Positions 8,843 to 29,153 of a stretch of 64,000 bases of DNA are shown piece after piece; the first letter of the stretch is position 1, and each line of letters starts with the position of its first letter. The position numbers were made by a program, and so were the translations under genes. Origin of the DNA: Phyllobacterium endophyticum (GTDB taxonomy: Bacteria > Pseudomonadota > Alphaproteobacteria > Rhizobiales > Rhizobiaceae); assembly GCF_003010935.1 (NCBI RefSeq), contig NZ_PGGN01000006.1, positions 186,001 to 250,000 of the forward strand. Reading direction: 5' to 3'. The notes below the pieces were generated by a model. It ran no database searches and was not told the origin of the DNA. It saw only the letters and a program-made list of their open reading frames with translations.

Positions 8843-10327
8843 TTACCGTTCGCCCATTGCCTCGGACGAGATCTCGGCCAGCGGCGAGAACAGATACTCG
8901 AGAATACGGCGCTTGCCGGTCTTGACTTCCACGGTAACCGCCATCCCGGCCGATAGAGGCATGGCTTTGCCATCTACATCGATGGTGGTCTTGCCGGGCT
9001 TGATGGTGACGGGGAATACCAGGTTCTGAACACGTTGTGCATTGCCGGTGGGGATTGTGTTCTGGAGTTCCTTGGCGGCCTCTGCCTCCACTTGCTGGGC
9101 GTCGGGCTCAGCGATGGCGTCCGTAGCGACGCGCAGGACCTGGCCTTCGATCATACCGTAGCGGGTGAACGGGTACGCTTCGACTTTTATTATAGCATCC
9201 TGCCCTGCCTTGACGAACCCGATATCGTGGTTCGGCAGATAGGCCTCTATTTCGAGGGCTGCATCCTCCGGAACGATCCGCATGAGCTCGGTTCCAGCGG
9301 AAACCACCTGACCCACCGTGGTGATGGCCGACGCCTGCACCACTCCTGCGACCGGGCTTGCGATCGACATCGATTGCCTGCGCTTTTTCAGTTTTATCGT
9401 CTGTTGCGTCAATTCATCGACCTGCCGTTCGGCAGCCGACATTCTTTCGATATTGTCCGCTACGAATGTATGGATCACCTTCGCGGACTCGCTGACAGCC
9501 ACGTTCAATGCAGTGCGGGCGGTTTCGCGCTGCCCGTTCTGGCTTGCGAGTGTCGCCTGGGCTTCCTGCAGCTGCTGCAGCGCGTCGATGACCTGCGCCC
9601 TTGATCCGGCTTGCGAAGCGATGAGTTCCGAGCGCATCGAAACGCGCTCCGCCAGAGTTTTCGCCAAATTCCCTTGCGCAGTGATGGTTTCGTCCAGGCT
9701 GCGGATTTCTGCCCGGCGCTGGGCACTTTGTGCATCGAGATTATCGAGAGATGATGCGAGCTGCGAGATATCCGCATCGTAGTTGAGCTGTTCGCGCGTG
9801 GCGATATTGTCCGGCATGTCTGGCGGAAATACCAGCCGCAAGCCGGTGCCGTTGCGGCCAGCGCCCGTTATTGCCTGCTTGAGCCAGCCGGCAACCGTGT
9901 CCTGAACCGCCTTGCGCCGCAGAACTTCGGCGCGAGAGGCTTGAAGGTTGGTCTGACTGGCGTTTTCCTCTGCCCTTATTTCCGTATCGTCAAGCACGAC
10001 CAGCACGTCGCCGGCTTTGACCTTGGTTCCGTTTGTCACGGGTATCGCGATGGTTTTACCCATCTCGATCGACTGGATGACCTTGACGCGCCCTGCCGGC
10101 TGCACTTTTCCCTGTGCCGTTGCGACGATGTCGAATTTGCCGAACCAGGTCCAGGCAAGTGCGCCGACCGCCAGAACGCAGATGAACCAGATCATGGCGG
10201 TGCGAACCGGCGATGCGGGCGTTTCCAGTATCTCGAGCGCCGCAGGCAGGAATTCATTGTCCGCGGACAGGCGCTTCGGCGCACGGCGCGCCGGCGCCAT
10301 GGCCTGCGGCTTGGCTTGAACGTTCAT
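8843..10327 (-). CDS. Type I secretion membrane-fusion (HlyD-type) protein
   Basis: 494 residues from the ATG at 10327, which overlaps the upstream ATPase stop (ATGA) and follows GGAGG; an in-frame ATG at 10354 lies inside the ATPase gene. Order: short cytoplasmic tail rich in Ala/Arg, one membrane segment near residues 55-75, lipoyl-like half (SIEMGKTIAIPVTNGTKVKAGD), a long helical hairpin of about residues 130-320, the second lipoyl half (SIASPVAGVVQ) and a C-terminal barrel domain. It bridges the inner-membrane ABC protein to a TolC-like channel. No TolC gene is in the window. Confidence 0.93.
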   Translation of the reverse strand: MNVQAKPQAMAPARRAPKRLSADNEFLPAALEILETPASPVRTAMIWFICVLAVGALAWTWFGKFDIVATAQGKVQPAGRVKVIQSIEMGKTIAIPVTNGTKVKAGDVLVVLDDTEIRAEENASQTNLQASRAEVLRRKAVQDTVAGWLKQAITGAGRNGTGLRLVFPPDMPDNIATREQLNYDADISQLASSLDNLDAQSAQRRAEIRSLDETITAQGNLAKTLAERVSMRSELIASQAGSRAQVIDALQQLQEAQATLASQNGQRETARTALNVAVSESAKVIHTFVADNIERMSAAERQVDELTQQTIKLKKRRQSMSIASPVAGVVQASAITTVGQVVSAGTELMRIVPEDAALEIEAYLPNHDIGFVKAGQDAIIKVEAYPFTRYGMIEGQVLRVATDAIAEPDAQQVEAEAAKELQNTIPTGNAQRVQNLVFPVTIKPGKTTIDVDGKAMPLSAGMAVTVEVKTGKRRILEYLFSPLAEISSEAMGER

Positions 10328-12696: not shown

Positions 12697-15561
12697 TCAG
12701 AACTTGCCGACGACATTGAGGAAGACGCCCTGATCATCCAGCGTAAGATCGCGCAGGTCCTCCGAGAACTGACCGAAATTATAGCCGACGCCGACTTTGA
12801 AATTGTCGCCGACATGCCGGTAAAGAGCGAGCAAGGCACCATAGTCGGTGGTGCCGGCGTCCGGCATTGCCAGCACACGCCCTTCGACGAGAAAGTCCCA
12901 GCTCTTGACGAAAGTCAGGTCGGCGCGAAGGATCCCGAGGTGCGCCGAAGATTTTTCCCAGCCAGAGAAGACTTCCCGATCGTCGTCCTGACGCTGCCGG
13001 GTCTCACCGATGCGAAAGCCGTATTTGCCGCCGATCGTAAGCCATGGATAAAGGTCATAGTTGGCATCCGCCGAGAGGATATGGCTGCGCTGGGACGGAC
13101 CATATTCGTCGCCACTGATCGCGCTGACCTGATCCTCGCCCGGTGTATCACGTAGCCACGCATACTTGAACAATGCATTGAGCCGATCATTGGCGATAGG
13201 TCTGTAGGCGTAGCCGAAAGACGCTTCTGTATAATCGCCGTCGCGAAAGGAGGTTTTCCTGTCGGAGTCCGAGAAAACAGCCTCCACGCTGACAAGCAGC
13301 CGCCAGTCCTCCGAGGTTTTCCAGCTAAGGCCGCTTGCGACCAGATAGGTGTTGGCATCCCGACTGTCATCATCGCTGTTTTCGAAACGGGCCTCGCCGC
13401 GCAGACGCGCCGTGATCCTTTCTTCATCCTTGTAACCGATCGCCAGCGAAACGGCCCTCCGCTCGAAATCCGAGTTCTCCAAACCGTCATTTGGATTGAT
13501 CGTATCATCCTCGACGATCCCCGCCTCGAACCCTCCGTCGATGGTCCAGGCCTCGTCAGGCGTATAGACGACACCATAGGTTTGGGTGAGCGAATTTCTC
13601 GCACCGAACAAATCGTAATTGCGTTCCGCATAGGCCGATAGCGTATCGTTCAATTTGCGCTTTGCGCCAAGGACCAGAGTACCTCGATCGGTTCCTACCA
13701 GGTCATAGCTCCTGTCTAGGCCGAAGGAACGGTCCGGGTCCAGCCGGTATCCGAGATAGTAACTGTCATCGGCCGTCGGATGGTAGTCGATGCCCGCCAA
13801 TCCCCCGAAGCCCTGGTTTCCATAGGACACTTCGCCGCTAAGGCTGATCTTCTCCGTAAGCTCATAGACGGTGCCGGCACCGGCGCGGTCATTCCGGTTG
13901 ATATCGCCGGCACGTGATAGTGTAGCTTGGCCAAAAAGATAGTAAGTGTGGTCGTCGTCCGGTTGATATTCCAGCCGGGCGCCTGTGTCGAGGCGCGATC
14001 CATTGTACCCGGATTTGCGCGTCGCGCGAGCAATGGGTGATTGCAATGCGCTATAGGTCAAGCCAAAGGAGGCTTTCCAATACTCGTTCAGTTGCCAGCT
14101 GACCGCACCGGCACCCTTGCGTTTCGACCGGCGGCCAATCTCCCGATCGTCGATATCGCTTCGCCCGCTCCCTTCATGGTAATCGTCATAGTTGAGATCA
14201 AGATTGAGAGCTTTGCTCAGTTCTATGTTGGCAAAGGCTCCCCAAAGGCGCTCATCCACCGAAACCTGTTCCGAGATCGTCGAGAACCCTGCGTTTTTCT
14301 GCTCGTAGTAGCTTCCAACTATGCCACTGAAGCCGTCGGCGGCGATATCCTCTAGATCCACCTGAGCTTTGGCGCGCCAGGACGTTGCCGCGCGATTGCG
14401 CGTACCGGTCGTGCCGACGTCGCTTAGGGTCAACCCGCCATCGGTCGAACGCGATGTGCCGAATCCCGGCCCTTTGGAGCGGGCGACCTCCGCCTCGATG
14501 AAGGTCTGTTCAGAGTGTCTTATCTGGATGTCGGCTCCGTAGGCCTGCTGGTTGGCGAGACCGGTATTCTCGTTCATGCCGGTTGCACCAATGCGAAGCT
14601 TGTCGGCAAACCAGTGTTGAACCCTGCCGCCATAAACATAACCGTCTATGGTTCCCGCGGTCGGCGTAAACTCATACTGTGATATGAGATAGAGTTTATT
14701 TCCACCGAGCGCCCCCTCACGAACCGGAGCAGCAGTGCCGATAGAAGAAGACAGCGGCCGCTTCAGGATCAGCGTTCCTTGCAGATAGTCGAAGGAATAG
14801 TCTTCGCCATAGCGCAAGGTGCGTCGTTCCATGACTTGCCCGGTTACCTGATCGCGCACCTCCACGCTGACCGTTTCGGAGCCGATAGTAATATCCTGGC
14901 GCTTCATGAAATAGGCGGAGCCACCGGTGCCAAGAAACTCATCGCGCTGCGGCAGCGTAGCTGGTTCAGCAGCGTAAACCGTGGCTTCGGTTTGTCGCTC
15001 ACCGAACGTGGTCGTCTTTTCGGAGCGGTAAACTCCGCTGGCCCCATATAGTGCCCTGTCCGAGCGCATGAATTCATTGCCGGTAATCGACGCTTTGTAG
15101 TTGCCCCACATGACATGGCTGTCGCCGCGATCCAGCCGGACATAGAATTTGCCGTTGGTCGGCGCGTCATCGATCGCGGTCGAATCATCGCCATAAATGG
15201 GATAGAAATCATCGGGATCGATGCGCCGCAGCAGGTTGCGCGGGTCTTTTGCGTCGAGGCCGCGAAACATGTTGTCGAGATCGTCTTCGGCGCTGTCTCC
15301 TGCGGCAGTCAGCAGATATTTGCCTTTGATCTTGCCCTTCACATAAAAGGCCAGCCGTCCCTTGGCATAGACGTCATCATATTCCCCTGGACGTACAGTT
15401 TCTATATTGTCGTCTCCAAAGCGTTTGCCGACCGTAAGGTCCGCCAACCCGACATAGAACCATTCGTTTCTAGGTATCGTGATACGCCGGCTGAACGCCA
15501 GTCCGCCACTTTTTGAAATACCTGATACTGCCACGTCCACCTCGTGGTTGCCGGCCGGCAA
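12697..15561 (-). CDS. C-terminal part of the barrel protein
   Basis: 954 residues opened by a TTG that is probably not a real start, since the frame continues the upstream one. After a short domain (AFSRRITIPRNEWFYVGLADLTVG) come many short amphipathic, aromatic- and charge-alternating segments (YEQKNAGFSTISEQVSVD, YYLGYRLDPDRSFGLDRS, GVGYNFGQFSEDLRDLTL). It ends ...DDQGVFLNVVGKF, with a terminal phenylalanine, the usual outer-membrane beta-barrel insertion signal. No TonB box or plug is evident. I read it as a 20-plus-strand barrel. It probably belongs to the large barrel proteins found beside DUF11/DUF7507 proteins in alphaproteobacteria. Confidence 0.75.
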   Translation of the reverse strand: MPAGNHEVDVAVSGISKSGGLAFSRRITIPRNEWFYVGLADLTVGKRFGDDNIETVRPGEYDDVYAKGRLAFYVKGKIKGKYLLTAAGDSAEDDLDNMFRGLDAKDPRNLLRRIDPDDFYPIYGDDSTAIDDAPTNGKFYVRLDRGDSHVMWGNYKASITGNEFMRSDRALYGASGVYRSEKTTTFGERQTEATVYAAEPATLPQRDEFLGTGGSAYFMKRQDITIGSETVSVEVRDQVTGQVMERRTLRYGEDYSFDYLQGTLILKRPLSSSIGTAAPVREGALGGNKLYLISQYEFTPTAGTIDGYVYGGRVQHWFADKLRIGATGMNENTGLANQQAYGADIQIRHSEQTFIEAEVARSKGPGFGTSRSTDGGLTLSDVGTTGTRNRAATSWRAKAQVDLEDIAADGFSGIVGSYYEQKNAGFSTISEQVSVDERLWGAFANIELSKALNLDLNYDDYHEGSGRSDIDDREIGRRSKRKGAGAVSWQLNEYWKASFGLTYSALQSPIARATRKSGYNGSRLDTGARLEYQPDDDHTYYLFGQATLSRAGDINRNDRAGAGTVYELTEKISLSGEVSYGNQGFGGLAGIDYHPTADDSYYLGYRLDPDRSFGLDRSYDLVGTDRGTLVLGAKRKLNDTLSAYAERNYDLFGARNSLTQTYGVVYTPDEAWTIDGGFEAGIVEDDTINPNDGLENSDFERRAVSLAIGYKDEERITARLRGEARFENSDDDSRDANTYLVASGLSWKTSEDWRLLVSVEAVFSDSDRKTSFRDGDYTEASFGYAYRPIANDRLNALFKYAWLRDTPGEDQVSAISGDEYGPSQRSHILSADANYDLYPWLTIGGKYGFRIGETRQRQDDDREVFSGWEKSSAHLGILRADLTFVKSWDFLVEGRVLAMPDAGTTDYGALLALYRHVGDNFKVGVGYNFGQFSEDLRDLTLDDQGVFLNVVGKF

Positions 15562-16397
15562 GTACGTTGAACCACGAATGCATGTTCCCGATCGACGGGG
15601 ATCGTGTCGCCAAGCGCCTTGACCAAATAACCCTCCGGTACATGCCGCCCGAAGATGGTCACCGCGCCGCCGTGGACCGGAATATTGCGCAGGGCGGTGT
15701 TGTCTTCCCCCATTCCGGGTGCAGTGACCGCGCCTTCGTCTGCCCCCACCCGGCCGGTATTCGTCTCTTGCTGGGGTAATTCACTGCTCGTTCGCGCCAG
15801 AGTTCGCGGCAAGGTCTCGTCATACCTTCTATCGGCATCATAGACACGCAGAACATACTTGAACCGCTTCTCCTTCTCCTCCTTGGCCGGCATGGTCCAG
15901 GAAGCCTCGCCATTGACGGCAACGGGAACGATGACGACGGGCTTGCCCGCAACTTCCTCGGAATCCTCGAAGATTCGTATCTCGGCGTTTCTGATGAACG
16001 CCGGATAATTTGCCGTGGCGAGAAAATCGATGGTCTCGCCCGGAAGATACGCGCGGCGTACCGGTATCGTCGATATGTTCAGCATGGGGCTGACGTCGAG
16101 GCCATCGAATTTGACCTGGATGTCAACAGCAGCAAGGCCAACGTCCGTCTTGCGCCGCTGATTGCCGATCGCGGCTGCCGCCGCTTTCGTGGGTCCTTGC
16201 CGAAGCGTGCCACCTTTGGCGAGGGGCTCGCCGTCGACACTGATGGAGAACGGAATGGAGCTTCCGTCCCTTTCCTGCGCAACGGCTGGAAGACTGGCAA
16301 ACACCATCGAAACACACCCGGCGAGCATGCCGCGCGTGTTACCGGACGGTCGGCGGGACATGGCACGGCACATTGGACTGGCAAGATAATTGGTCAT
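15402..16397 (-). CDS. N-terminal part of the barrel protein
   Basis: 331 residues, of which about 280 are in the original frame. A signal peptide (MLAGCVSMVFASLPAVAQ, cleavage after AVA-Q near residue 40) is followed by an Ig-like region with VDIQVKFDGLDVSP and YLPGETIDFLATANYPAF. A second strand-rich domain holds HGGAVTIFGRHVPEGYLVKA. The last 50 or so residues after HAFVVQ are out of frame and resemble nothing. The periplasmic Ig-like domains could contact the repeat protein encoded upstream. Confidence 0.75.
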   Translation of the reverse strand: MTNYLASPMCRAMSRRPSGNTRGMLAGCVSMVFASLPAVAQERDGSSIPFSISVDGEPLAKGGTLRQGPTKAAAAAIGNQRRKTDVGLAAVDIQVKFDGLDVSPMLNISTIPVRRAYLPGETIDFLATANYPAFIRNAEIRIFEDSEEVAGKPVVIVPVAVNGEASWTMPAKEEKEKRFKYVLRVYDADRRYDETLPRTLARTSSELPQQETNTGRVGADEGAVTAPGMGEDNTALRNIPVHGGAVTIFGRHVPEGYLVKALGDTIPVDREHAFVVQRTCRPATTRWTWQYQVFQKVADWRSAGVSRYLETNGSMSGWRTLRSANALETTI

Positions 16398-19300
16398 TGA
16401 TCTGCCTCCGTGCGTGTCTCGATGTTCAGCTCATAAGTTCCTCCGGCCGCTTTCCAGCGTTTCCCTATATCCTCTCCGATCTCTGCGAGGCGTTCCTCCG
16501 CGAGCTTTCTGGCGACGGTGACAAGATAGAAAATGCGCAAGGTTGAAGGTTGCGCCTTCAGGACCTCGACCAGTCCGTCCAAGCTGTCGCTCCATTCCAT
16601 TTTCAGGACGGTCGTGCCGTCTTCGAAGGCTCCATCGGTCAGATCAAGCCGCACGACATGGCCGATCGAGGCACCGAAATTGAGCTTTGACATCTTGCCG
16701 GCCGTCAGGCGGATCACCCTCGGATTCTCCGTCGTCACGCTGTAGCCGGTGGGCAAGGTGCGTGGATCCAGCTTCATGATGAAGTTGGAGCCAATGCGCT
16801 TGTCCGGCAGATCGGCACAGGCAACATGGAAGCGGCCATGCTTGTCGGTCGTAACCAGCAGACCCTTGACGGTGGCGACCCGCACACCCGGAAGGCCCGG
16901 CTCGTCAGGATCGGCATAGCCATTATTGTTCACATCATCGAAGACCTTGCCGGCGATATCGCCGCAGTCGAAAACCGGATCGATGATGATTTCGATTGTG
17001 GCACCGGCTTCAGGCGCCAATTGGCCGCCGCCAGCTTCGTCTACACGTGCCCGGTTGGTGTGTTTTCCAGGTTCTGCCGTGCTCAAGGCAAGCATCTGCA
17101 GGCGGATTGTCAGGTCAGCCTTGGGGCCCAACCGCAGGTTATCGAAGCGGACATTTCGACCAAGAATGACAGGGATTGCCGCGACACCATTTACGGTTGC
17201 GGAGCCCTCCACATAGCGGAAGCCTGATGGCAGCACGTCGGTTACGCTGATCGCGCCGACATTACCGAGGTTGTTGTTGACCACCTTGATGGTGAAGGGA
17301 GCTTTTTCGCCTCGCCGGATTTGGCGCAAGCCGGCCTGTTTCGTGATGGAGACGTCTTTGCCATCGGCTGCCGGGAGATCGATGACGGACGAGCTCTCCG
17401 GTGAATGGAACAGAGTACTCGTCGCACCATCACCATTGTATCCTTGGGCAGTCGCCTTGTTCTTGACCCCTCCTTCGAGGGACGCCGCCGCGTCGATATC
17501 ATCCTGACCCAGCCTGTAAGTGGCTGTGAATGTCTGGTTCTTGCCCGGTTCTATCGAAGCCGACACGGGTTCGCGGCGCGACAATTTATTCTGTGCCGGA
17601 CGACCGTTGAAGACCGGACCCTCATCGACGACGGACACGTCGTGAATTGTTGCAGTACCCTTGTTGCCGACCACGAACCGATATGTGATCGTCTCATCGG
17701 CATTGGCATGCCCGTCACCGTTCTCATCGTTGAACCGCCCGGTTTTGACGAGGTCCAGTTCCGGATTCTCTTCCCCGATTTCCAAGAGGGCAGCGCTTTC
17801 GCCGCTATCAATCGGGGCAGCGCCACCCTCCCCGCCTCCGCTCGATACCTCATCTCCAGGTGCCCGCAACGGCATCGGAGCTCCGTTCAACTCGCCTGGA
17901 GTTCCGACGGACCTGGCGATCATCGGAACATCTTTACGGACAAACATGGCTGTCTTCGGCGGCGCTTTGGCGGGCACGCGCCCATGGGCCTTCGCCTTGT
18001 TGAGAACGCGCTTGGCGACAATGTCCGCCTGAGTAAGGATGTAAGTGGCGGTAAAAGTGGTCGTATCGGTCTGCCCGGGCGCCAAAACCGGTATGGGTCC
18101 GCCCTTGATGACAATGCCTGGCAAAATGTCGGTGATCGTAATGTTGACGAGCGTGACATTGCCCGAATTGCTGACCTTGAATGTGTAGGGAACGCTGGCA
18201 CCAGCCGTCCTGCCGCTCGGCTTGCCTATACTCTTGAGAAGATCGAGCTTCGCTGCGGCCACGATAGGCGTGGACACTTTTGGCGATATTGCTGTGATCG
18301 GGACGCCCGTTGGCGGGTTAGCCTTCACATTGGCCGTATTTTCAACCGAACCCGCGTCGATATCGCTCTGTTTGAGCGTGTAGACTGCCTGGTAGGCGGT
18401 CGTATTGACTTCGCCCGGCGCGAGGGACTTGATCGGCTGCCCCTTGAGAAGCACGCCCGGCAGGGCGTCGGTCACCGTGACGTCGCTCAACGTCACATTG
18501 CCGGTATTCGTAATAACAAAATCGTAGGCAATCGTAGCCCCCGGCGTATTGCCGGATGGCGCGCCCGCCCTCTTCAGGATCGTAAGTTCCGGACCGGCGG
18601 CTAGCGCCACCGGTACTGTGACTTCCGGACTCTTGATTGGTTCTTCACCGAAGATGATGAGGCCTTCTCCGGCAACAGGTCTGCGGCTATGAGTGCCCGT
18701 GGCCGTCGCCTTGTTGACCACCTTGCCTGCGTCAACATCCTTCTGCGTGAGGACGTAGGTGGCGCTGAATGATGTGCTATTCGCCTCGCCAGGGGCGAGG
18801 GCTGCGATCGGACCGCCCTTCAGCACAACTCCGGGAAGTGTATCCTGGACCGTGACATTCGAGAGTGTCACGTTGCCTTCGTTCCTCACGACGAATGTAT
18901 ATTTGATCGTATTCCCGGCTTGGACGACTGCGGGAGCGTCGGCCGTTTTCTCGACAGTCAGTTTCGATACTACGTCCGCGACTGTTGTCACCGGCGCCGA
19001 TTCTATCGGCATGAGCGGTGTCCCGTCGGGACCGTCGCCAGTCAGCGTCGCGACGTTCCTCACTGCTCCAGTGTCGAGATCGGCCTGCTTTACGATATGA
19101 TCTGCACTGCAGCTTGTTTCTGCCGCGGGCGCGAGCTGCTGGACCCTGCAGATTGGCAAGGTGGACAGCAACTTGTCACTGACCACGAGATTCCTCAGCG
19201 TCACATTGCCGATATTGGTGATTGTGAAAATATAGGTGATCTTGTCGCCGACTTTTGCAAACGAGGTACGGTCCGCCTTCTTGGCGATCGCCATCTCAGG

Positions 19301-22300
19301 CTTTGAGGCAAGCGCCACGGTTGTTGCGCTAGGGTCGCTCACGACCCTCGTCTTGTCGGGCGAAGTACCCGTGGCCGTTACCGCGCCTTCGACCCTGCCC
19401 TTGTCGAGATCGGCCTGCGTGATCTCATGCACCGCAGTAAAGCTCGCAGCGTCTTCCGCGCCCGGCGAAAGCTCAAGCAGCTGGCCCTCTATCTTCAGTC
19501 CCGGCTCATCAAGCACCACGTCCTTCAGCGTCACATTGCCGGTGTTCTTCACCGTGAACGTATAGGTGATCTTGTCGCCGGGCCTGTTGCCGGTGGGAAC
19601 ACCCGCCGTCTTTTTGACTTCAAGCTTGCCTAGCGCCGGGAACTTTGACGTCACCGGCGCCGATATCGCCGTCACCCAATCACCGACTGGCGGCTGGCCG
19701 GTGACGCTCGCCATATTCTCGACCCCGCCTCTGTCGAGATCGGCCTGCGTCAGCGTATAGATGGCGGTGAATGTCTTCGCATCCTCCGCGTCAGGCGCAA
19801 GCGAGGCGATGGGCCCTCCGCTCAGCAAGATGCCCGGCAATTTGTCGGAGACCGCCACGTCCTTCAGCGTGACATTGCCGATGTTCTTGATCACGAATGT
19901 ATAATTGATGGTCGAACCCGCCACGTTGCCCGAGGGCTTGCCCGCCATCTTGACGATCGAGAGCTTGCCCTCTGCGAGAAGCGCCACGGTTGTTGCGTTA
20001 GGGTCGCTCACGACCCTCGTCTTGTCGGGCGAAGTACCCGTGGCCGTTACCGCGCCTTCGACCCTGCCCTTGTCGAGATCGGCCTGCGTGATCTCATGCA
20101 CCGCAGTAAAGCTCGCAGTGTCTTCCGCCCCCGGCGAAAGCTCGATCAGCTGGCCCTCTATCTTCAGCCCCGGCTCATCAAGCACCACGTCCTTCAGCGT
20201 GACATTGCCGGTGTTCTTCACCTTGAACGTATAGGTGATCTTGTCGCCAGGCCTGTTGCCGGTGGGAACTCCCGCCGTCTTTTTGACTTCGAGCTTGCCC
20301 TCTGCGAGAAGCGCCACGGTTGTCGCACTCGGGTCGCTCGCCACCCTCGTCTTGTCGGGTGCAGTACCCGTGGCCGTTACCGCGCCATCGACCCTGCCCT
20401 TGTCGAGATCGGCCTGCGTGATCTCATGAACTGCGGTAAAGCTCGCAGTGTCTTCCGCCCCCGGCGAAAGCTCGATCAGCTGGCCCTCTATCTTCAGCCC
20501 CGGCTCATCAAGCACCACGTCCTTCAGCGTGACATTGCCGGTGTTCTTCACCTTGAACGTATAGGTGATCTTGTCGCCAGGCCTGTTGCCGGTGGGAACT
20601 CCCGCCGTCTTTTTGACTTCGAGCTTGCCCTCTGCGAGAAGCGCCACGGTTGTCGCACTCGGGTCGCTCGCCACCCTCGTCTTGTCGGGTGCAGTACCCG
20701 TGGCCGTTACCGCGCCATCGACCCTGCCCTTGTCGAGATCGGCCTGCGTGATCTCATGCACCGCGGTAAAGCTCGCAGCGTCTTCCGCGCCCGGCGAAAG
20801 CTCAAGCAGCTGGCCCTCTATCTTCAGCCCCGGCTCATCAAGCACCACGTCCTTCAGCGTGACATTGCCGGTGTTCTTGATCACGAATGTATAATCGATG
20901 GTCGAACCCGCCACATTGCCCGAGGGCTTGCCCGCCGTCTTGACGATCGAGAGCTTGCCCTCTGCGAGAAGCGCCACGCTTGTCGCACTCGGCGCGCTCG
21001 TCACCCTCGTCTTGTCGGGCGAAGTACCCGTGGCCGTTACCGCGCCATCGACCCTGCCCTTGTCGAGATCGGCCTGGGTGATCTCATGCACTGCGGTAAA
21101 GCTCGCAGTGTCTTCCTCGCCCGGCGAAAGCTCTAGCAGCTGGCCCTCTATCTTCAGCCCCGGCTCGTCAAGCACCACGTCCTTCAGCGTCACATTGCCG
21201 GTGTTCTTCACCTTGAACGTATAGGTGATCGTATCGCCGAGCCTGTTGCCGGTGGGAACTCCTGCCGTCTTTTTGACTTCAAGCTTGCCTAGCGCCGGGA
21301 ACTTTGACGTCACCGTCGTCGAGGTTGCCGTTACCGGAACACCGACTGGCGGCTGGCCGGTGACGCTCGCCATATTCTCGACCCCGCCTCTGTCGAGATC
21401 GGCCTGCGTCAGCGTATAGATGGCGGTGAATGTCTTCGCATCCTCCGCGTCAGGCGCAAGCAAGGCGATGGGCCCTCCGCTCAGCACGATGCCCGGCAAT
21501 TTGTCCGAGACCGCCACGTCCTTCAGCGTGACATTGCCGGTGTTCCTGATCACGAATGTATAATTGATGGTCGAACCCGGCGTGCTGCCAGAAGGCTTGC
21601 CAGCCGTCTTGACGATCGACAGCGCTGGACTTTTGTCCAAAGTCACGCCCACAGTTGAGGGTAAGCTCGCGAACTTGTCGCCCTGAGGCGTTACACCGGT
21701 AGCCGTCGCCTCATTGGATACGATTCCACCGTCGAAATCCGCTTGAGTAAGTGTATATTGCGCCGTGTAGGCGGTTTTCTCGGTTTCTCCAGGGGAGAGT
21801 TTGGCAATCGGCTTGCCAGTCAGCACCAGGCCGGGAAGTGTGTCCTCCACAACAATATTCGTCAGTGTGACGTCACCCGTGTTCTTGACGGTGAACGTGT
21901 AGTCAATCACACCTCCCACCGCCATTACCGTCGGACCTTCGGCATCCTTGAACAACATCAGGTCAGGAGCCGCACCGGTAAACATAGTCAGTGTCTTTCC
22001 CGGTAGGCTGGTGGTTGTTTCGCCGGATGGCGTGCTCCCGGTGGCAGTGGCGGAATTTTCCAGCTGCCCCGCATCGACATCGGCCTGAGTAAGAGCGTAG
22101 CTGGCGGTAAACGTGGATTTGTCTTCAGCACCAGGCGCCAGAGAAGCGATCGGGCCGCCTTTCAGATCGACGCCCTTCAGCGATTCGGAGAGTGTTATGT
22201 TGGTCAGGGTTACAGTGCCGATATTCCTGATCGTAAACGTATAGGGAATAACAGAGTCGGCCTTGAAGCCGTTTGAAGGTTTTCCTGCCTCTTTTGCGAT

Positions 22301-22903
22301 GGCCAAGCCTTTTACCTGATCGAAGGTGACCGTCACCGGCGCCGATATCGCCGTCACCCGGTCACCGACTGGCGGCTTTCCGGCAACCGACGCCACATTC
22401 TCGACCTTGCCGGCGTCAACGTCTTTTTGCGTCAGCGTGTAAGTGGCCGTGAACGTTTGTGTATCTTCCGCCCCCGGCGCAAGCGAGGCGAGGGGGCCGC
22501 CCTTCAGCACAACACCTGGCAGTGTGTCCGTCGCGCTCACATTTGTCAGCGCCACATTGCCGATGTTCTTGATCACGAATGTATAATCAATGGTCGAACC
22601 CGCCACATTGCCCGAGGGCTTGCCCGCCGTCTTGACGATCGAGAGTTTGCCCTCCGCGAGAAGCCCCACGGTTGTTTCGCTAGGGCCGCTCACGACCTTC
22701 GTCTTGTCGGGTGCAGCACCCGTGGCAATCACCGCGCCATCGACCCTGCCCTTGTCGAGATCGGCCTGCGTGATCTCATGCACTGCGGTAAAGCTCGCAG
22801 TGTCTTCCTCGCCCGGCGAAAGCTCTAGCAGCTGGCCCTCTATCTTCAGCCCCGGCTCATCAAGCACCACGTCCTTCAGCGTCACATTGCCGGTGTTCTT
22901 CAC
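16394..22903 (-). CDS. C-terminal part of the giant repeat protein
   Basis: 2,169 residues; the ATG at 22903 lies inside a repeat and is not a natural start. It holds about sixteen repeats of roughly 110 residues with the pattern KTAGxPSGN...YTFxxKNTGNVTLxxV...LAPGxEDxxxFTAxYxLTQADxDxGxVxNxAxxTG. Near residues 1700-1760 is a Gly/Ala-rich linker (SSGGGEGGAAPIDSGES). Then come a DUF11 domain (DVSITKQAGLRQI...), an SdrD-B-like fold with a calcium-type loop DDVNNNGYADPDEPG, and a last domain ending near TYELNIETRTEADQ that follows such proteins in other alphaproteobacteria. Confidence 0.82.
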   Translation of the reverse strand: MKNTGNVTLKDVVLDEPGLKIEGQLLELSPGEEDTASFTAVHEITQADLDKGRVDGAVIATGAAPDKTKVVSGPSETTVGLLAEGKLSIVKTAGKPSGNVAGSTIDYTFVIKNIGNVALTNVSATDTLPGVVLKGGPLASLAPGAEDTQTFTATYTLTQKDVDAGKVENVASVAGKPPVGDRVTAISAPVTVTFDQVKGLAIAKEAGKPSNGFKADSVIPYTFTIRNIGTVTLTNITLSESLKGVDLKGGPIASLAPGAEDKSTFTASYALTQADVDAGQLENSATATGSTPSGETTTSLPGKTLTMFTGAAPDLMLFKDAEGPTVMAVGGVIDYTFTVKNTGDVTLTNIVVEDTLPGLVLTGKPIAKLSPGETEKTAYTAQYTLTQADFDGGIVSNEATATGVTPQGDKFASLPSTVGVTLDKSPALSIVKTAGKPSGSTPGSTINYTFVIRNTGNVTLKDVAVSDKLPGIVLSGGPIALLAPDAEDAKTFTAIYTLTQADLDRGGVENMASVTGQPPVGVPVTATSTTVTSKFPALGKLEVKKTAGVPTGNRLGDTITYTFKVKNTGNVTLKDVVLDEPGLKIEGQLLELSPGEEDTASFTAVHEITQADLDKGRVDGAVTATGTSPDKTRVTSAPSATSVALLAEGKLSIVKTAGKPSGNVAGSTIDYTFVIKNTGNVTLKDVVLDEPGLKIEGQLLELSPGAEDAASFTAVHEITQADLDKGRVDGAVTATGTAPDKTRVASDPSATTVALLAEGKLEVKKTAGVPTGNRPGDKITYTFKVKNTGNVTLKDVVLDEPGLKIEGQLIELSPGAEDTASFTAVHEITQADLDKGRVDGAVTATGTAPDKTRVASDPSATTVALLAEGKLEVKKTAGVPTGNRPGDKITYTFKVKNTGNVTLKDVVLDEPGLKIEGQLIELSPGAEDTASFTAVHEITQADLDKGRVEGAVTATGTSPDKTRVVSDPNATTVALLAEGKLSIVKMAGKPSGNVAGSTINYTFVIKNIGNVTLKDVAVSDKLPGILLSGGPIASLAPDAEDAKTFTAIYTLTQADLDRGGVENMASVTGQPPVGDWVTAISAPVTSKFPALGKLEVKKTAGVPTGNRPGDKITYTFTVKNTGNVTLKDVVLDEPGLKIEGQLLELSPGAEDAASFTAVHEITQADLDKGRVEGAVTATGTSPDKTRVVSDPSATTVALASKPEMAIAKKADRTSFAKVGDKITYIFTITNIGNVTLRNLVVSDKLLSTLPICRVQQLAPAAETSCSADHIVKQADLDTGAVRNVATLTGDGPDGTPLMPIESAPVTTVADVVSKLTVEKTADAPAVVQAGNTIKYTFVVRNEGNVTLSNVTVQDTLPGVVLKGGPIAALAPGEANSTSFSATYVLTQKDVDAGKVVNKATATGTHSRRPVAGEGLIIFGEEPIKSPEVTVPVALAAGPELTILKRAGAPSGNTPGATIAYDFVITNTGNVTLSDVTVTDALPGVLLKGQPIKSLAPGEVNTTAYQAVYTLKQSDIDAGSVENTANVKANPPTGVPITAISPKVSTPIVAAAKLDLLKSIGKPSGRTAGASVPYTFKVSNSGNVTLVNITITDILPGIVIKGGPIPVLAPGQTDTTTFTATYILTQADIVAKRVLNKAKAHGRVPAKAPPKTAMFVRKDVPMIARSVGTPGELNGAPMPLRAPGDEVSSGGGEGGAAPIDSGESAALLEIGEENPELDLVKTGRFNDENGDGHANADETITYRFVVGNKGTATIHDVSVVDEGPVFNGRPAQNKLSRREPVSASIEPGKNQTFTATYRLGQDDIDAAASLEGGVKNKATAQGYNGDGATSTLFHSPESSSVIDLPAADGKDVSITKQAGLRQIRRGEKAPFTIKVVNNNLGNVGAISVTDVLPSGFRYVEGSATVNGVAAIPVILGRNVRFDNLRLGPKADLTIRLQMLALSTAEPGKHTNRARVDEAGGGQLAPEAGATIEIIIDPVFDCGDIAGKVFDDVNNNGYADPDEPGLPGVRVATVKGLLVTTDKHGRFHVACADLPDKRIGSNFIMKLDPRTLPTGYSVTTENPRVIRLTAGKMSKLNFGASIGHVVRLDLTDGAFEDGTTVLKMEWSDSLDGLVEVLKAQPSTLRIFYLVTVARKLAEERLAEIGEDIGKRWKAAGGTYELNIETRTEADQ

Positions 22904-24000
22904 CGTGAACGTATAGGTGATCGTATCGCCGAGCCTGTTGCCGGTGGAACTCCCGCAGTCTTTTTGACTTCAAGCTTGCCCTCCGCGAGAAGCGGCACGC
23001 TTGTCGCACTCGGCGCGCTCGCCACCCTCGTCTTGTCGGGCGAAGTACCCGCGGCAATCACCGCGCCATCGACCCTGCCCTTGTCGAGATCGGCCTGCGT
23101 GATCTCATGCACCGCAGTAAAGCTCGCAGCGTCTTCCGCCCCCGGCGAAAGCTCAAGCAGCTGGCCCTCTATCTTCAGCCCCGGCTCATCAAGCACCACG
23201 TCCTTCAGCGTGACATTGCCGGTGTTCTTCACCTTGAACGTATAGGTGATCTTGTCGCCGAGCCTGTTGCCGGTGGGAACTCCCGCCGTCTTTTTGACCA
23301 TCAGTCCGGGTAAAGGTATCCCGGTGGTCGCAGTGCTGGGCTTTGGCTCGGGCAAGGGAGGACTGCCGGGGGGCGGCGTTCCGGTGACCGTCGCAGTGTT
23401 CTCCACCTTGCCGGCCGCTACATCAGCCTCGGTCAGCTTGTAGACCGCCGTCACCGTCTTTACGCCGGTGGCAAGAGTGCCGATCGTGAATGCGGGAAGT
23501 TTGCCTAGCTTGTCGTCAGTGATCTTCACCCCTGTCAAAGTCACGTTGCCGGTGTTTTCCACCTTGAACGTATAGGTGATCGTGTCGCCGGCCTTGCTGC
23601 CAGATGGAGCGCCGGATGTCTTTTCGATTGACAGACCTGACAAAGCGGGAAGCGTAACCGTTGCCGATGAAGGCAAGCTTGTAAGCGTCTTGCCATCAGG
23701 CGTGCTACCGCTTGCGCTCGCCGTATTGATGATCTGGGTTCCACCCGCCTTCTTGAGGTCGGCATCGGTCAGGGCATAGGTAGCGGTAAAGGTCGTCTCG
23801 TCGACTGTCGGCTTGTCCCTGGAGCCTGCGGCTAGCGTAATTGGCTCGCCCTTGATGACCACACCCGGCATCGTGTCCGTTATCTGCACATTCGTCAGCG
23901 GAAACGCACCAGGATTTGAAACCTTGAATTTATAGGTGATAAGCGCGCCGACAGCGAACACAGCGGGCGGTGTCGCGGTTTTAACGAGCTGGATATCAGG
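17390..24000 (-). repeat. Array of about nineteen ~330-bp coding repeats
   Basis: Coding repeats of about 330 bases (110 residues) in the giant gene, each with KNTGNVTL-like and LTQADxDxG motifs. Outer copies (17.4-19.2 kb, 21.7-22.6 kb, 23.3-24.0 kb) are diverged. Copies between about 19.3 and 21.6 kb, and around 22.6-23.3 kb, are nearly identical in DNA. That mosaic suggests recent duplication or gene conversion in the centre. Confidence 0.9.
20106..20758 (-). repeat. Perfect direct tandem copy, unit 330 bp
   Basis: By eye, bases from about 20106 to 20428 are identical to those 330 bases further on (20436 to 20758). The first differences are CTGCGG against CCGCAG at the left edge and CATGAA against CATGCA at the right. 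It encodes two consecutive identical repeats (KLEVKKTAGVPTGNRPGD). It is a hotspot for unequal crossing over and a known trouble spot for short-read assembly. Confidence 0.85.
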
Positions 24001-25146
24001 ATATAGAATCGTAACGCGGGCCTTGCCAGATTCGCCATTAGCTGTCGTGGCCGGTTTTCTTTTGTCATAGAGGCCATTCTTGAACGTATATTCTACAGGC
24101 GTCGGCGAACCGCGGAATCCGGCCTCCGGATTGAAGGTCAAGCCACCCGTGTGGTCATCGTAGGTCCACGTGCCCTGACCCTTAACAGTGAAGCCGGTAA
24201 TCGCGTCCCCGAGCGCTTCTCCACGTTTGATCGTGACGGGACTGCTCGCGCCTGACGGCAGCACGAGGCTTACCGTTCCTTTGGCGAAACTTGTCACGGA
24301 ACTGACCGAAAATGCCCCTCCTGCCAGTTCGTTTCCATCATTCTCCAAAATGTGCAGGGTGACGGGCGTTCCGGACTCGGCCTCCTTGCGATCATCCTTG
24401 GCGGCAGGTTTGCGCATATCCGAGCATTTGAGATCGAACGACTGGGATTCCTTGTAGCTGTGGTCGTCGAGGGCAACCGTAAGCTTATTGACGCCGATAC
24501 GGCCCATGCGGAAAACGCTGGTCTTGGAATAGGAAACTTCCGCTCCGGATGTCGGCTCGTTACTATAGGTTTTATCACCGATGGCGCTGAAAACGCTGTC
24601 CACCCCGGCCACAGTGCCGAATTCTCGCGGAAGCGTGGATTGCCTGGAAATACGGACAAATTCGACCGGAGGCGCGCATAGCTCAATAAACAGGCGCTCC
24701 TGATTGGGGCCGTCCAGATCGTTATATTGAACGAAGACTTCCGCCTCGACCGCTACGCCGCCTTTATCGGTCGCGAGATTGTAGGTTCCCGCCTCGTAGA
24801 TATACCAATCGGCCCATATCGCGGCGCTGCCTTTGCCCATTATCGAGGCAATGCCTGGCTTTTTCAAATCATTGTGAACCGAAAACTCATTGGCGCTCGT
24901 TCCAGTCGATGCCTTCGCCACCAGGTCTACGTTTTTCCCGCCGACAGTGCCTGCGTTCTTGAAAAGGGCGCGCTTGTTTGAACCACTGGTGGCATCGCTA
25001 AAATCCGATTGTTTTAAATCGTTGAACTTAAGTTCGGCGGCAGACGCGGGAGCGGTTGCCGCGATCAATGCGAAGACGACCGCGAGAAAAATGAAGGGGC
25101 AAATCAGCCATTTGATGCTGGAAAGGCGGGCGCAATATGTTGTCAA
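22900..25146 (-). CDS. N-terminal part of the giant repeat protein
   Basis: 748 residues from a TTG at 25146; no ATG or GTG fits. The signal peptide has a hydrophobic core ICPFIFLAVVFALIA and a likely cleavage at ASA-AE near residue 36. Residues 37-250 form a domain I do not recognise, rich in Ser/Asp/Lys. A cadherin- or Ig-like domain follows (DDRKEAESGTPVTLHILENDGNE...). Four DUF7507-type repeats start at IQLVKTATPPAVF; the fourth is cut by the frameshift, and the last dozen or so residues are out of frame. An AT-rich upstream region precedes it. Confidence 0.82.
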   Translation of the reverse strand: MTTYCARLSSIKWLICPFIFLAVVFALIAATAPASAAELKFNDLKQSDFSDATSGSNKRALFKNAGTVGGKNVDLVAKASTGTSANEFSVHNDLKKPGIASIMGKGSAAIWADWYIYEAGTYNLATDKGGVAVEAEVFVQYNDLDGPNQERLFIELCAPPVEFVRISRQSTLPREFGTVAGVDSVFSAIGDKTYSNEPTSGAEVSYSKTSVFRMGRIGVNKLTVALDDHSYKESQSFDLKCSDMRKPAAKDDRKEAESGTPVTLHILENDGNELAGGAFSVSSVTSFAKGTVSLVLPSGASSPVTIKRGEALGDAITGFTVKGQGTWTYDDHTGGLTFNPEAGFRGSPTPVEYTFKNGLYDKRKPATTANGESGKARVTILYPDIQLVKTATPPAVFAVGALITYKFKVSNPGAFPLTNVQITDTMPGVVIKGEPITLAAGSRDKPTVDETTFTATYALTDADLKKAGGTQIINTASASGSTPDGKTLTSLPSSATVTLPALSGLSIEKTSGAPSGSKAGDTITYTFKVENTGNVTLTGVKITDDKLGKLPAFTIGTLATGVKTVTAVYKLTEADVAAGKVENTATVTGTPPPGSPPLPEPKPSTATTGIPLPGLMVKKTAGVPTGNRLGDKITYTFKVKNTGNVTLKDVVLDEPGLKIEGQLLELSPGAEDAASFTAVHEITQADLDKGRVDGAVIAAGTSPDKTRVASAPSATSVPLLAEGKLEVKKTAGVPPATGSAIRSPIRSR

Positions 25147-25757
25147 TGAAATACCTGTCTTTTCAAAATTCAGTCGCGCTAAAATACAACTTTAAGTAGT
25201 ACTAACTCAAAACAGCAAAATCAAAATGATCAAAAACAAGGCAAACTATGAACCTGCTATATTTGTCCACTGGACTACAGTCAAGGACAAAAATATTTCA
25301 GCTACGGATAAAATAGTCCTAAATTCAACATGTTAGGTCAAATACAGCAACTAGCGATGTGTAGCCGATTGTATTTCCAAAATAGACAAAGCATGACGTC
25401 CACCCTGAAAACGCACACTTTATACGTGCACCCCCTGACCGCGCCTGCCGCCCTGTCTCGATACCGCCATCGAAACATTCCTCCCCGGATTGCTCCGGCA
25501 CCTGATGTCGGCGGATAATTTCGGTCGGATGTCGGCTTCAGACCCATCTGGCTTGACCGTTGCGCCTGTCTCCCGCCGAAGTTGTATTTCTTTGGCAAGA
25601 TTGCTACCGTCGCCTTCACCTGGAAAGGACGAAACGGACTGCCGGAACTGGCGGTCACCGAAACGAATTCCCAGGCAGTCGAGCGTCCGGGAGGCTGACG
25701 GCTCCAGGAACCAATCCGTCGCAAGTGCATTTGGTTACGAGCCGTGGGAGTTTAGCG
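25147..25757. other. AT-rich intergenic region between giant gene and Ku
   Basis: 611 bases without a supported gene. The first 250 or so (25150-25400) are strongly AT-rich against the rest of the window, with A-runs and TTTTTG/CAAAAA tracts. They should contain the promoter of the giant gene, reading leftwards, and could bind a nucleoid protein such as a MucR/Ros- or H-NS-like silencer. The second half has normal GC and leads to the Ku start. Open frames here on both strands show no family features. No EcfG motif of correct spacing was found ahead of Ku. Confidence 0.6.
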
Positions 25758-26606
25758 TTGGCGCCAAGAGCAAACTGGAAGGGTTTTCTGAAAGTAGCGG
25801 AGCTTACTTGCCCCGTTGCCCTTTATACCGCCGCTTCAACTTCCGAAAGAATAGCCTTCCACACGCTCAACCGCGCAACGGGACACAGGGTGCATCGGCA
25901 GTTCATCGATACGGACAACGGCAAGCCGGTAGAGAAGGACGACCAGGTCAAGGGCTACCCCGTCGGCGACAATAATTACATCGTGCTTGAGCCTGACGAG
26001 ATTGCTGCCGCAGTGCCGGAGAGCGACAAGACGCTTGCTGTCGAGGCGTTTGTGTCATGCGATGATGTGGATGACGTCTTCTTCGACAAGCCCTACTATC
26101 TGGCCCCGAGCGACAAGCATGGCGAAGAGGCCTTCGCTCTTATCCGCGACGGTCTGGCCAAGAAGAATGCCGTCGCCGTCGCGCAGACCGTGCTGTTCCG
26201 CCGCGAACGTACGCTGTTTATCCGCGCTTTCAATGGCGGGCTGCTCGCCAACACCTTGCATTTCGACTATGAAGTGCGCTCCGCCAGGGAAGCATTCAGC
26301 GACGTTCCCGAGATGAAGATTACTGGCGAGATGCTGGATCTTGCCAAGCACATTATCGAGACCAAGCGTGGAACATTCGATCCGTCCCAGTACAAGGATC
26401 GGTACGAAGCCGCGCTTGCGGAACTTGTGCGGGCAAAGCTCGAAGGCAAGCCTCTTCCGGAGAGGAAGCCGGCCAAATCCGAAAAGGTCGTGGATCTCAT
26501 GGAAGCCCTGCGCCAGAGCGCCGGTGTCGGAAAGAAGGAAGCCAGCGCCAGGAAAGGCCCCGCCCGCAAGGCGAAAGCGGAGCCCGCACGGAGGAAGGCG
26601 AGCTAG
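25758..26606 (+). CDS. Ku protein, DNA end-joining
   Basis: 282 residues from a TTG at 25758 with a GGGAG site; this gives the family start (M)APRANWKGFLKVAELTCPVALY. The frame is open to 25560, but the extra 66 residues match nothing. Core Ku motifs include IAFHTLNRATGHRV, KGYPVGDNNYIVLEPDEI and DVFFDKPYYLAP. The C-terminal tail after residue 230 is Lys/Ala/Arg rich (KKEASARKGPARK), typical of DNA-binding extensions. It binds DNA ends as a homodimer and recruits LigD, whose gene begins three bases after the stop. Confidence 0.93.
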   Translation: MAPRANWKGFLKVAELTCPVALYTAASTSERIAFHTLNRATGHRVHRQFIDTDNGKPVEKDDQVKGYPVGDNNYIVLEPDEIAAAVPESDKTLAVEAFVSCDDVDDVFFDKPYYLAPSDKHGEEAFALIRDGLAKKNAVAVAQTVLFRRERTLFIRAFNGGLLANTLHFDYEVRSAREAFSDVPEMKITGEMLDLAKHIIETKRGTFDPSQYKDRYEAALAELVRAKLEGKPLPERKPAKSEKVVDLMEALRQSAGVGKKEASARKGPARKAKAEPARRKAS

Positions 26607-26609
26607 TCC

Positions 26610-29153
26610 ATGGTTGCTCTTGAAACATACCGCAAGAAACGTGATTTCAAGACAACGTCCGAGCCCCGGGGGCGCAAGGCCAGGAAGACCGGGAACAGTT
26701 TCGTCATACAGAAACACGATGCGACGCGGCTGCATTACGATCTGCGCCTGGAAATGGACGGCGTATTGAAGAGTTGGGCTGTTACGCGCGGCCCGAGCCT
26801 GGTTCCGGGTGAGAAACGGCTCGCGGTTCATGTCGAGGACCATCCACTGGAATATGGCGACTTCGAAGGTACGATTCCCAAGGGGGAATATGGCGGCGGC
26901 ACCGTCATCGTCTGGGATCGCGGGACGTGGATTCCGGTCTTCGATGAGCATCGAGGCTACCAGAAGGGCCATCTCGAATTCGAGCTACATGGCGAAAAGC
27001 TGTCTGGACGCTGGCATCTTGTGCGCATGCAGGGCAAGCCGCGGGAAAAGCGTGAAAACTGGTTGCTGATCAAGGGCGAAGACGAGGCAGCCCGCTCCGA
27101 AAGCGATCCGGATATTCTTGAAGAACGACCAGAGTCGGTGAAGACCGGGCGCCAAATCGCGGATGTCGCCGGCGAACAACCGGGTTGGTCATCCAAGACC
27201 GGCAAGATCAGCAAGAGCAAATCGTCGAGCAAGGCGGCCAAGGGCAAGACATCACCAGCCATGGCAGCGGAACCGGACATCCCAGATCCTTCCGGCTTGA
27301 AGGGCGCCAAAAAAACGGCTCTACCGTCGTTTGTGGAACCGACGCTGGCGACGCTTTCGCCGAAGCCACCGACCGGCGACCGCTGGATTCACGAAATCAA
27401 GTTCGACGGCTACCGCCTGCAGGCGCGCATCGAAGCCGGACGAGTCAAGCTTTTCACCCGCAGCGGCCTCGACTGGACCAAGAAATTCGGCAAGGAGATC
27501 GTCGCCGCCTTTCAGGATCTGCCTGTCGGCACTGCCCTCATAGATGGCGAAGTGGTGGTCGAGACCGCCGGGGGAGCCTCGAACTTTTCGGCGCTCCAAG
27601 CTGCCCTCAGTGACAATCGCACCGACCGCTTCGTCTTCTACACCTTCGACCTTCTCTATCTCGATGGTTTCGATTTGCGTGGTCTGCCCCTGATTGAACG
27701 CAAGGCGCTGCTTGAAAAACTCGTGTCAGGAGCGCCAGGGCTGATCAGGTATAGCGGACACTTCGAAGAGAACGGCCCCCTCATACTCGATCACGCCTGC
27801 CGCCTCAGCCTTGAAGGAATCGTGTCGAAACTGCGAGATGCCCCCTATCGTTCCGGCCGGGTCAAGGACTGGATCAAGTCCAAATGCTCGCAGCGACAGG
27901 AATTCGTCATTGCCGGCTATGTACCTTCGACCACGTCGCGCAAAGCCATCGGTTCGCTCGTCATGGGCGTTTACAATGGCAAGAAACTCGAGCATGTGGG
28001 CCGCGTTGGCACGGGCTATAGCACGTCCGTGGCCGAGGACCTATTTAGCAAGCTGGAACGGATCCGCACTCCGGAGAGCCCTTTTGCCGAACGCCTGAGC
28101 GCGGAGGCGGCAAGGCAGGTGCGCTATGTGAAACCGCAACTCGTTGCCGAGGTGGAATTCCGGACCTGGACTTCGGACAACATTCTCCGCCATGCTGCCT
28201 TCCGAGGCCTGCGCGAAGACAAGGATGCCAGCGAGGTCGTGCGCGAAACGGCGAAGACCAGGGCTCCGGCGACACCCGAGAGGTCAAGCGTGAAACTCAC
28301 CCATCCGGATCGCATATATTGGCCTGGAGAAGGCGTCACCAAGGAAGGGCTGGCCGATTACTATACGGAGGTGTGGAAATACATCGCCCCGTTTGTCGTT
28401 GGGCGTCCACTCGCCTTGCTTAGGGGACCGGAAGGCATTACCGGCCAGACTTTCTTCCAGAAGCACGCCTGGAAGGGCCTCAACTCCAATATCGTGCTGG
28501 TGAAGGACCCAACGGACACCGACGACGAACCACTGATCAGCATCGATGACCTCGACGGATTGATCGGCCTCGTCCAGTCGGCGGTGCTCGAGATTCACCC
28601 CTGGGGCTCGACTGTCGCCAATTGGGAGCGCCCGGACATGATCATCATGGACCTTGACCCGGGAGACGGCGTTGCCTGGGACGAGGTCATCGCGGGCGCT
28701 CTTGAAACCCGCGAGAGGCTGGAACGTGCAGGGTTGAATTCCTTTATCAAGACATCCGGCGGCAAGGGGCTCCATGTCGTAGCGCCAGTCAAGCCAAAGG
28801 CTGCCTGGCCCGAGGTCAAGGCGTTCACCAAGGCTATCGCCGATTCCATGGCCTCCGATAGTCCGGATCGCTATGTCTCGACCATCACCAAGTCGAAACG
28901 CAAAGGCAAGATCCTCATCGATTACCTGCGCAACCAGCGGGGCATGACCGCGGTCGCACCCTATTCGACGCGGGCCCGCCCGGGTGCGGCCGTTTCCATG
29001 CCCCTGGAATGGGACGAACTGACGCCGGGCATTGGGCCTGCTTATTTTACGGTCTTGAACACTCCGACGCGGCTTGCCTCGCTCAAGCGGGATCCATGGG
29101 CGGACTTTAGATCAGCCGCCGCTCCAATAGAAAAATCGAAGAAGAAGCCCTGA
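26610..29153 (+). CDS. ligD: ATP-dependent DNA ligase D (LigD)
   Basis: 847 residues with all three activities of end-joining LigD. The 3'-phosphoesterase domain is at about 30-190 (FVIQKHDATRLHYDLRLEMD and HVEDHPLEYGDFEG). The ATP ligase domain is at about 240-530, with the nucleotide-binding lysine in EIKFDGYRLQAR, then LIDGEVV and SLEGIVSK. The primase-polymerase domain is at about 560-840 (MIIMDLDPGDGVAWDEV; TSGGKGLHVVAPV). A Ser/Lys-rich linker separates the first two. Domain order PE-Lig-Pol is the Agrobacterium/Rhizobium type. It shares an operon with the first Ku. Confidence 0.96.
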   Translation: MVALETYRKKRDFKTTSEPRGRKARKTGNSFVIQKHDATRLHYDLRLEMDGVLKSWAVTRGPSLVPGEKRLAVHVEDHPLEYGDFEGTIPKGEYGGGTVIVWDRGTWIPVFDEHRGYQKGHLEFELHGEKLSGRWHLVRMQGKPREKRENWLLIKGEDEAARSESDPDILEERPESVKTGRQIADVAGEQPGWSSKTGKISKSKSSSKAAKGKTSPAMAAEPDIPDPSGLKGAKKTALPSFVEPTLATLSPKPPTGDRWIHEIKFDGYRLQARIEAGRVKLFTRSGLDWTKKFGKEIVAAFQDLPVGTALIDGEVVVETAGGASNFSALQAALSDNRTDRFVFYTFDLLYLDGFDLRGLPLIERKALLEKLVSGAPGLIRYSGHFEENGPLILDHACRLSLEGIVSKLRDAPYRSGRVKDWIKSKCSQRQEFVIAGYVPSTTSRKAIGSLVMGVYNGKKLEHVGRVGTGYSTSVAEDLFSKLERIRTPESPFAERLSAEAARQVRYVKPQLVAEVEFRTWTSDNILRHAAFRGLREDKDASEVVRETAKTRAPATPERSSVKLTHPDRIYWPGEGVTKEGLADYYTEVWKYIAPFVVGRPLALLRGPEGITGQTFFQKHAWKGLNSNIVLVKDPTDTDDEPLISIDDLDGLIGLVQSAVLEIHPWGSTVANWERPDMIIMDLDPGDGVAWDEVIAGALETRERLERAGLNSFIKTSGGKGLHVVAPVKPKAAWPEVKAFTKAIADSMASDSPDRYVSTITKSKRKGKILIDYLRNQRGMTAVAPYSTRARPGAAVSMPLEWDELTPGIGPAYFTVLNTPTRLASLKRDPWADFRSAAAPIEKSKKKP

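Follow-up and report, generated by a model that had tools for sequence, protein, structure and literature searches.

A repeat protein with a conserved tail and a large predicted outer-membrane barrel are encoded as a recurrent gene pair in Pseudomonadota

In the window, by which we mean the whole 64,000-nucleotide stretch of Phyllobacterium DNA that was analysed, a gene for a long repeat protein is followed by a gene for a large predicted outer-membrane barrel, and comparison of sequences across relatives gives good support to a partnership of the two proteins. The repeat protein is probably an adhesin with a docking or sorting tail (DUF11-SdrD_B-END) and its neighbour a dedicated outer-membrane barrel, acting as exporter or anchor; the surface location of the adhesin, the contact between tail and barrel and the direction of export are parts of this reading that we infer. 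The pair is widespread and, apparently, undescribed.

Both genes are transcribed from the minus strand, the repeat gene (25,146 to 16,394) ahead of the barrel gene (16,397 to 12,697), and the locus comprises the following features:

22,900-25,146, minus strand: repeat protein, first open reading frame piece, 748 aa, with Sec-type signal, head, DUF11 and the first DUF7507 units
24,079-24,252, minus strand: CshA-like repeat in the head, aa 299-356, from a profile scan
22,930-22,960, minus strand: frame change in the repeat gene, position approximate, within a unit that hardly differs from its sisters, located by comparison with the sister repeats
16,394-22,903, minus strand: repeat protein, second piece, 2,169 aa, with 16 DUF7507 stretches, DUF11 and the tail
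16,976-17,356, minus strand: last DUF11 (CLIPPER) domain, part of the constant tail
16,670-16,975, minus strand: SdrD_B-like part of the constant tail (25.3 bits, short of the Pfam cut-off of 29.7; E 1.8e-5)
16,397-16,669, minus strand: END domain, 91 aa, predicted strand-helix-strand-helix-strand
16,394-16,397, minus strand: overlap of the repeat stop and the barrel start, 4 bases, ATGA
15,402-16,397, minus strand: barrel protein, first piece, 331 aa, with signal and periplasmic N-terminal domains (barN)
15,549-15,561, minus strand: frame change in the barrel gene, in unique sequence, located by comparison with the same-genus relative
12,697-15,561, minus strand: barrel protein, second piece, 954 aa, with barMid and the C-terminal outer-membrane barrel
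8,843-12,489, minus strand: type I secretion genes resembling HlyB and HlyD (TIGR01846, TIGR01843), immediately following the pair

The preliminary description had read the two genes as single open reading frames, of about 9 kb and of 1,230 residues respectively. Each turned out to be split over two frames, into 748 and 2,169 residues for the repeat protein and 331 and 954 residues for the barrel; the four-base overlap between them, which had also been described, is present. When 321 open reading frames of a same-genus genome were compared with 498 kb of the 5.5 Mb Phyllobacterium genome that contains the window, 121 stretches (142 kb) were intact and 3 breaks were flagged, the barrel gene among them, which indicates that such breaks are not widespread in this genome. 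That of the repeat gene, which was directly visible on comparison with the sister repeats, went unflagged in this test. Relatives carry unbroken versions of both genes, and a same-genus relative carries the P. sophorae locus referred to below. Since the genome of the window yields a single barrel match and a single END match, the broken copy is apparently its sole copy. Decay or assembly error may underlie both frame changes, and with changes in both genes the window copy is possibly inactive.

The repeat protein starts with a Sec-type signal, read by eye, carries DUF11 above cut-off in both pieces, and contains 3 + 16 = 19 DUF7507 stretches across them, in agreement with the signal, the DUF11 domain and the roughly 19 repeats described beforehand. 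The DUF7507 score on the larger piece (1,098.5 bits) lies far beyond chance, and the solved CLIPPER domain 9ifr is matched as well. In the head, the CshA_repeat profile reaches 29.1 bits (cut-off 27) with the first 400 residues scanned alone and 25.5 bits, under that cut-off, when the piece is scanned in full, and comparison of the head with the CshA structure 6szc gave an E value of 0.64. An alignment of the stalk units, read by eye, shows the Lys-Asp-Asn triad intact in 12 of 20; Gly replaces the bond-forming Asn in seven and Glu replaces Asp in one. The seven Gly-bearing units (repeat units within, for example, 18,000-23,300 on the minus strand) are near-identical, as would result from recent amplification of a unit without the bond, and the frame change of the repeat gene sits in one of them. 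According to the available text of the source, DUF7507 is now called CLIPPER_2 and DUF11 CLIPPER, Lys-Asn isopeptide bonds are predicted for both, and the bond is proven for DUF11 by crystal structure 9IFR (PMC12617251). Isopeptide bonds would be expected to form in the window protein, too. As far as the accessible parts of two papers describe them, DUF11 and DUF7507 are the isopeptide-bonded CLIPPER domains that occur in fibrillar adhesins of Gram-negative bacteria (PMC12617251, PMC10952558). Judged by its sequence, the repeat protein is a fibrillar adhesin of this already described type, and as its architecture matches the one given there, the adhesin half is not a new type.

The conserved end domain claimed for the repeat protein was confirmed. 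Among 37 distinct complete END proteins the heads fall into eight clusters (75 of 666 pairs alike), and the tails form one (666 of 666 pairs). The SdrD_B-like domain, likewise part of the earlier claim, is matched at its place in this tail, although its score stays under the Pfam cut-off. END itself has no Pfam match at E values up to 1; its predicted order of strands and helices is compatible with OmpA-like domains, and an hhalign comparison with one OmpA domain gave E 0.03 at a probability of 1.7%. The fold-search matches listed for the repeat protein do not extend over END.

The barrel protein reaches the cut-off of no Pfam or NCBIfam family and has no sequence relative in the PDB; the P. 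sophorae barrel likewise matches no NCBIfam family. A fold search with the predicted model found that the C-terminal part resembles solved outer-membrane barrels of porin-like type. With a transmembrane barrel fold and a C-terminal aromatic residue the protein shows the features by which outer-membrane beta-barrels are recognised, and the terminal Phe is nearly invariant. The model places about 25 strands within residues 719-1192 alone, at a poor overall quality (pLDDT 58.8).

Pairing was assessed mainly in 62 relative barrel loci from named genomes, some of which are copies within one genome. A repeat protein lies directly upstream in 44 of them, 37 of these with the same 4-base ATGA overlap. 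The others comprise one fused locus, six at contig edges lacking upstream sequence, and 11 that have no neighbour despite sufficient room, namely 10 Nitratireductor barrels and one truncated barrel. Paired or fused loci thus make up 45 of the 56 with enough upstream sequence, and the idea of a functional pair survives the comparison with relatives by which the preliminary description had proposed to judge it. The pairing recurs in more distant Pseudomonadota: among 20 distant loci from the genome draws, 16 are paired, one is fused and three are without an upstream partner. As 11 of 62 and 3 of 20 loci have no adjacent partner, adjacency is not universal and a partner-independent role of the barrel is possible. 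Trees of barrel and tail are similar (r = 0.86; 351 pairs, 27 loci), a value that still includes shared species history and to which we therefore give no weight.

Within the genus, a barrel match was found in 9 of 19 other genomes, in one of them as a remnant only. In one same-genus genome (L073, G006) a piece of an adhesin head abuts the last 111 barrel residues, as if the intervening sequence had been deleted, and at one contig-edge locus (L049) we observed, by eye, a degraded stretch resembling the end of the partner. On a single 91-kb contig, Pseudorhizobium tarimense (L016, L017, L026, L061) carries the pair several times over in opposing orientations, and stretches of N separate or interrupt the repeats.

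The two halves also occur in one polypeptide. SdrD_B and barrel are joined in a single chain in Phyllobacterium sp. 21LDTY02-6 (L033), in L143 (G260) and in L209 (G641), and DUF11 is joined to the barMid region in Acinetobacter haemolyticus (L078) and in all 13 of the loci L130-L142, which had been picked for their long frames and in which the SdrD_B profile matched 6 of 13 and the barC profile 3 of 13. Domain order is identical between split and fused forms. The gene order can be reversed: in one genome (G581) the barrel is followed by a 3,520-aa protein with 24 stalk matches, SdrD_B and END. The L143 chain (G260:C38) spans at least 4,218 aa and ends in SdrD_B and the barrel, and its genome additionally carries a stand-alone barrel and two END matches. 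In A. haemolyticus (L078:12,437-16,476) an OmpA family gene and then another DUF11 gene come after the DUF11-barrel fusion, an arrangement that could possibly be a three-part version of the system.

END was detected in none of the fused chains examined. Of 16 distant split pairs, 6 gave no END match either, nor did the pair of Vibrio campbellii, which rules END out as the sole docking element. L200 and the fused chain of L209, each with barN but no END, speak against a strict link by which END and barN come and go together. END seems to be needed just where tail and barrel are separate chains, though not in every lineage.

At the level of whole genomes, a phylum draw of 398 genomes gave 13 with END and 56 with the barrel, with a barrel in 13/13 END genomes; in a class draw of 385 genomes the numbers were 8 and 12, with a barrel in 7/8, and among 39 relatives 10 and 12, with a barrel in 9/10. 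The three draws overlap, and the large ones were scored on at most 13 END and at most 2 barrel candidates per genome. Hypergeometric P values for the association of END with the barrel are 2e-12 (phylum), 3e-11 (class) and 9e-6 (relatives), uncorrected for kinship and with the genome of the window included. Two END genomes have no barrel match; they are 81% and 85% complete, and one of them has a stop within the match. Conversely, of the 56 phylum-draw genomes with a barrel, 43 had no END match among the up to 13 END candidates scored per genome. The stalk domain DUF7507 occurs in 8 of 80 phylum-draw genomes (5 over the Pfam cut-off), 7 of these 8 being among the nine barrel genomes of those 80; in this phylum it also tracks the barrel, and END is therefore not uniquely informative.

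Stand-alone barrels bear on how the partners are matched. All nine searched genomes with such a barrel carry END matches elsewhere, which means that the relation between barrel and adhesin is not strictly one to one, and the six Nitratireductor genomes among them have one barrel match each versus 4, 5, 4, 4, 2 and 1 END matches. Some END genes form arrays, two or three adhesin genes long, whose members differ in head and length. The Nitratireductor stand-alone barrels (L035, L039, L041, L042, L045, L051, L053 and L054) have a different N-terminal extension, and the neighbours of the one at L042 look, by eye, like iron-siderophore ABC uptake genes. The preliminary description had suggested a two-component surface adhesin with its outer-membrane anchor or exit channel; this fits the pairing and the fusions, but not as a strictly one-to-one relation.

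We propose that adhesin and barrel protein would both be exported by Sec, the adhesin entering the periplasm, where its stalk units would fold and those with an intact triad would staple themselves. The tail would then dock on the barrel protein, whose N-terminal domains are the most likely site, and the barrel would anchor the fibre and probably let it reach the surface head outward. One barrel might serve the adhesin of the neighbouring gene or several adhesins encoded elsewhere; if it can serve several, the tail would act as a sorting signal. A more far-reaching form of this proposal, which we regard as possible but less likely than not, is that DUF11-SdrD_B-END is a transferable sorting tail and the barrel the single translocon and anchor for a set of Pseudomonadota adhesins, beyond the numbered secretion types and wide enough for stapled Ig domains; in that form, domains already stapled could not be unfolded for a narrow pore.

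A rather unlikely alternative, to be taken seriously all the same, is that the barrel is a docking platform or anchor only, the adhesin crossing the outer membrane by other means and its tail being held afterwards. Pairing, fusion and conservation of the tail fit this equally well, and the available text of two papers credits such proteobacterial adhesins with C-terminal OmpA-like anchors (PMC10952558, PMC12617251). Against it, no other conserved transport gene was seen beside the pair, the type I secretion neighbours are not kept, and the fused chains have the order known from autotransporters, passenger before barrel. Those neighbours could instead export the repeat protein, with the barrel as its outer-membrane exit, and in the window they do lie directly downstream on the same strand. 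Yet the repeat protein bears a Sec-type signal, P. sophorae has the pair without these genes, and across 74 loci, the window itself excepted, HlyB matches had 26-35% identity, as any ABC exporter would give, and HlyD had no match. No GGxGxDx(L/I/V/F) RTX-like motif was found in the six frames of the window. With the HlyB/HlyD-like genes not conserved with the pair and the motif absent from the window, we rejected type I export as the route and regard this explanation as very improbable. On the other side of the adhesin operon, the divergent genes at 25,560-29,153 (plus strand), recognised by eye and presumably Ku and LigD of non-homologous end joining, were likewise dismissed as part of the system, since they point away from it and P. 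sophorae has the pair without them alongside.

The repeat protein might also stay in the periplasm as a scaffold or tether, with the barrel a porin or receptor linked to it. OmpA-like domains bind peptidoglycan, and this explanation could draw on the predicted fold order of END, which is compatible with such domains, and on the stand-alone Nitratireductor barrels that adjoin ABC uptake genes, read by eye as siderophore uptake. The roughly 19-24 Ig-like units in line would, however, far exceed the width of the periplasm, judging from the usual domain size, strongly varying heads on constant tails are the pattern of surface adhesins, and membership of END in the OmpA family is not established by the Pfam and hhalign results given above; we consider the periplasmic scaffold improbable. 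Finally, two unrelated envelope genes might share one operon by chance, and stand-alone barrels do exist, but repeated adjacency, fusion, reversed order and genome-level co-distribution leave this idea with hardly any credibility, its strong form being refuted by the fusions.

Gram-negative adhesins with CLIPPER stalks, such as Acinetobacter silvestris B9T28_05395 (PMC12617251) and those of the CshA_NR2 type (PMC10952558), share with the window protein, as described in the accessible parts of these papers, a Sec-type signal, a putative CshA-like head region, a DUF11/DUF7507 stalk with the Lys-Asp-Asn triad and a C-terminal anchor-like domain. Unlike theirs, the window-type tail DUF11-SdrD_B-END goes together with a large barrel, either separate or fused; the available text of PMC12617251 uses neither 'outer membrane' nor 'barrel', and that of PMC10952558 mentions no barrel partner. 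Our search for the adhesin-barrel pair, which covered titles and abstracts of the open-access literature, found no description. The earlier suggestion of an undescribed system would thus apparently hold for the pairing with the barrel, and not for the adhesin half, which is known. Two-partner secretion (type Vb, TpsA/TpsB) similarly combines a large surface protein with a co-encoded outer-membrane barrel in one operon, but the conserved module is C-terminal here, one barrel may serve several cargos, and no POTRA/Omp85 or TPS domain was matched in barrel or head (Pfam, E up to 1). The fused forms recall monomeric autotransporters (type Va) in that a single chain has the passenger at its N-terminus and the barrel at its C-terminus. 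Classical autotransporter barrels have 12 strands, in contrast to the about 25 modelled here, and no autotransporter-barrel family of Pfam was matched in the barrels or in two fused proteins scanned. As in type IX secretion and sortase sorting, there would be several cargos with a common C-terminal tail for a single dedicated partner; unlike type IX the system is found in Pseudomonadota, and no T9SS family (SprA translocon, sorting domain) was matched by sequence. SprA is also missing from the fold matches listed for the barrel, an absence that carries no weight. Type XI secretion (Slam) also joins an outer-membrane barrel to a co-encoded cargo in Proteobacteria, but the Slam cargo, as far as the available text describes it, carries an eight-stranded barrel domain (PMC12282271), and the repeat and barrel proteins gave no Pfam match to Slam (DUF560).

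For the surface delivery and retention of very long, covalently stapled Gram-negative adhesins, the accessible parts of the literature cited here have so far offered only an OmpA-like anchor. That barrel and tail together make up a distinct secretion and display system is possible, if for now doubtful. With a barrel family whose members accompany one constant tail, are in some cases fused to it and in some genomes stand alone alongside several tailed adhesins, the display of these fibres becomes an experimentally tractable question. The role proposed here, if true, would also assign a function to outer-membrane proteins that currently bear such names as 'TonB-dependent receptor', 'outer membrane protein transport protein', 'OmpA family protein' and 'hypothetical protein'.
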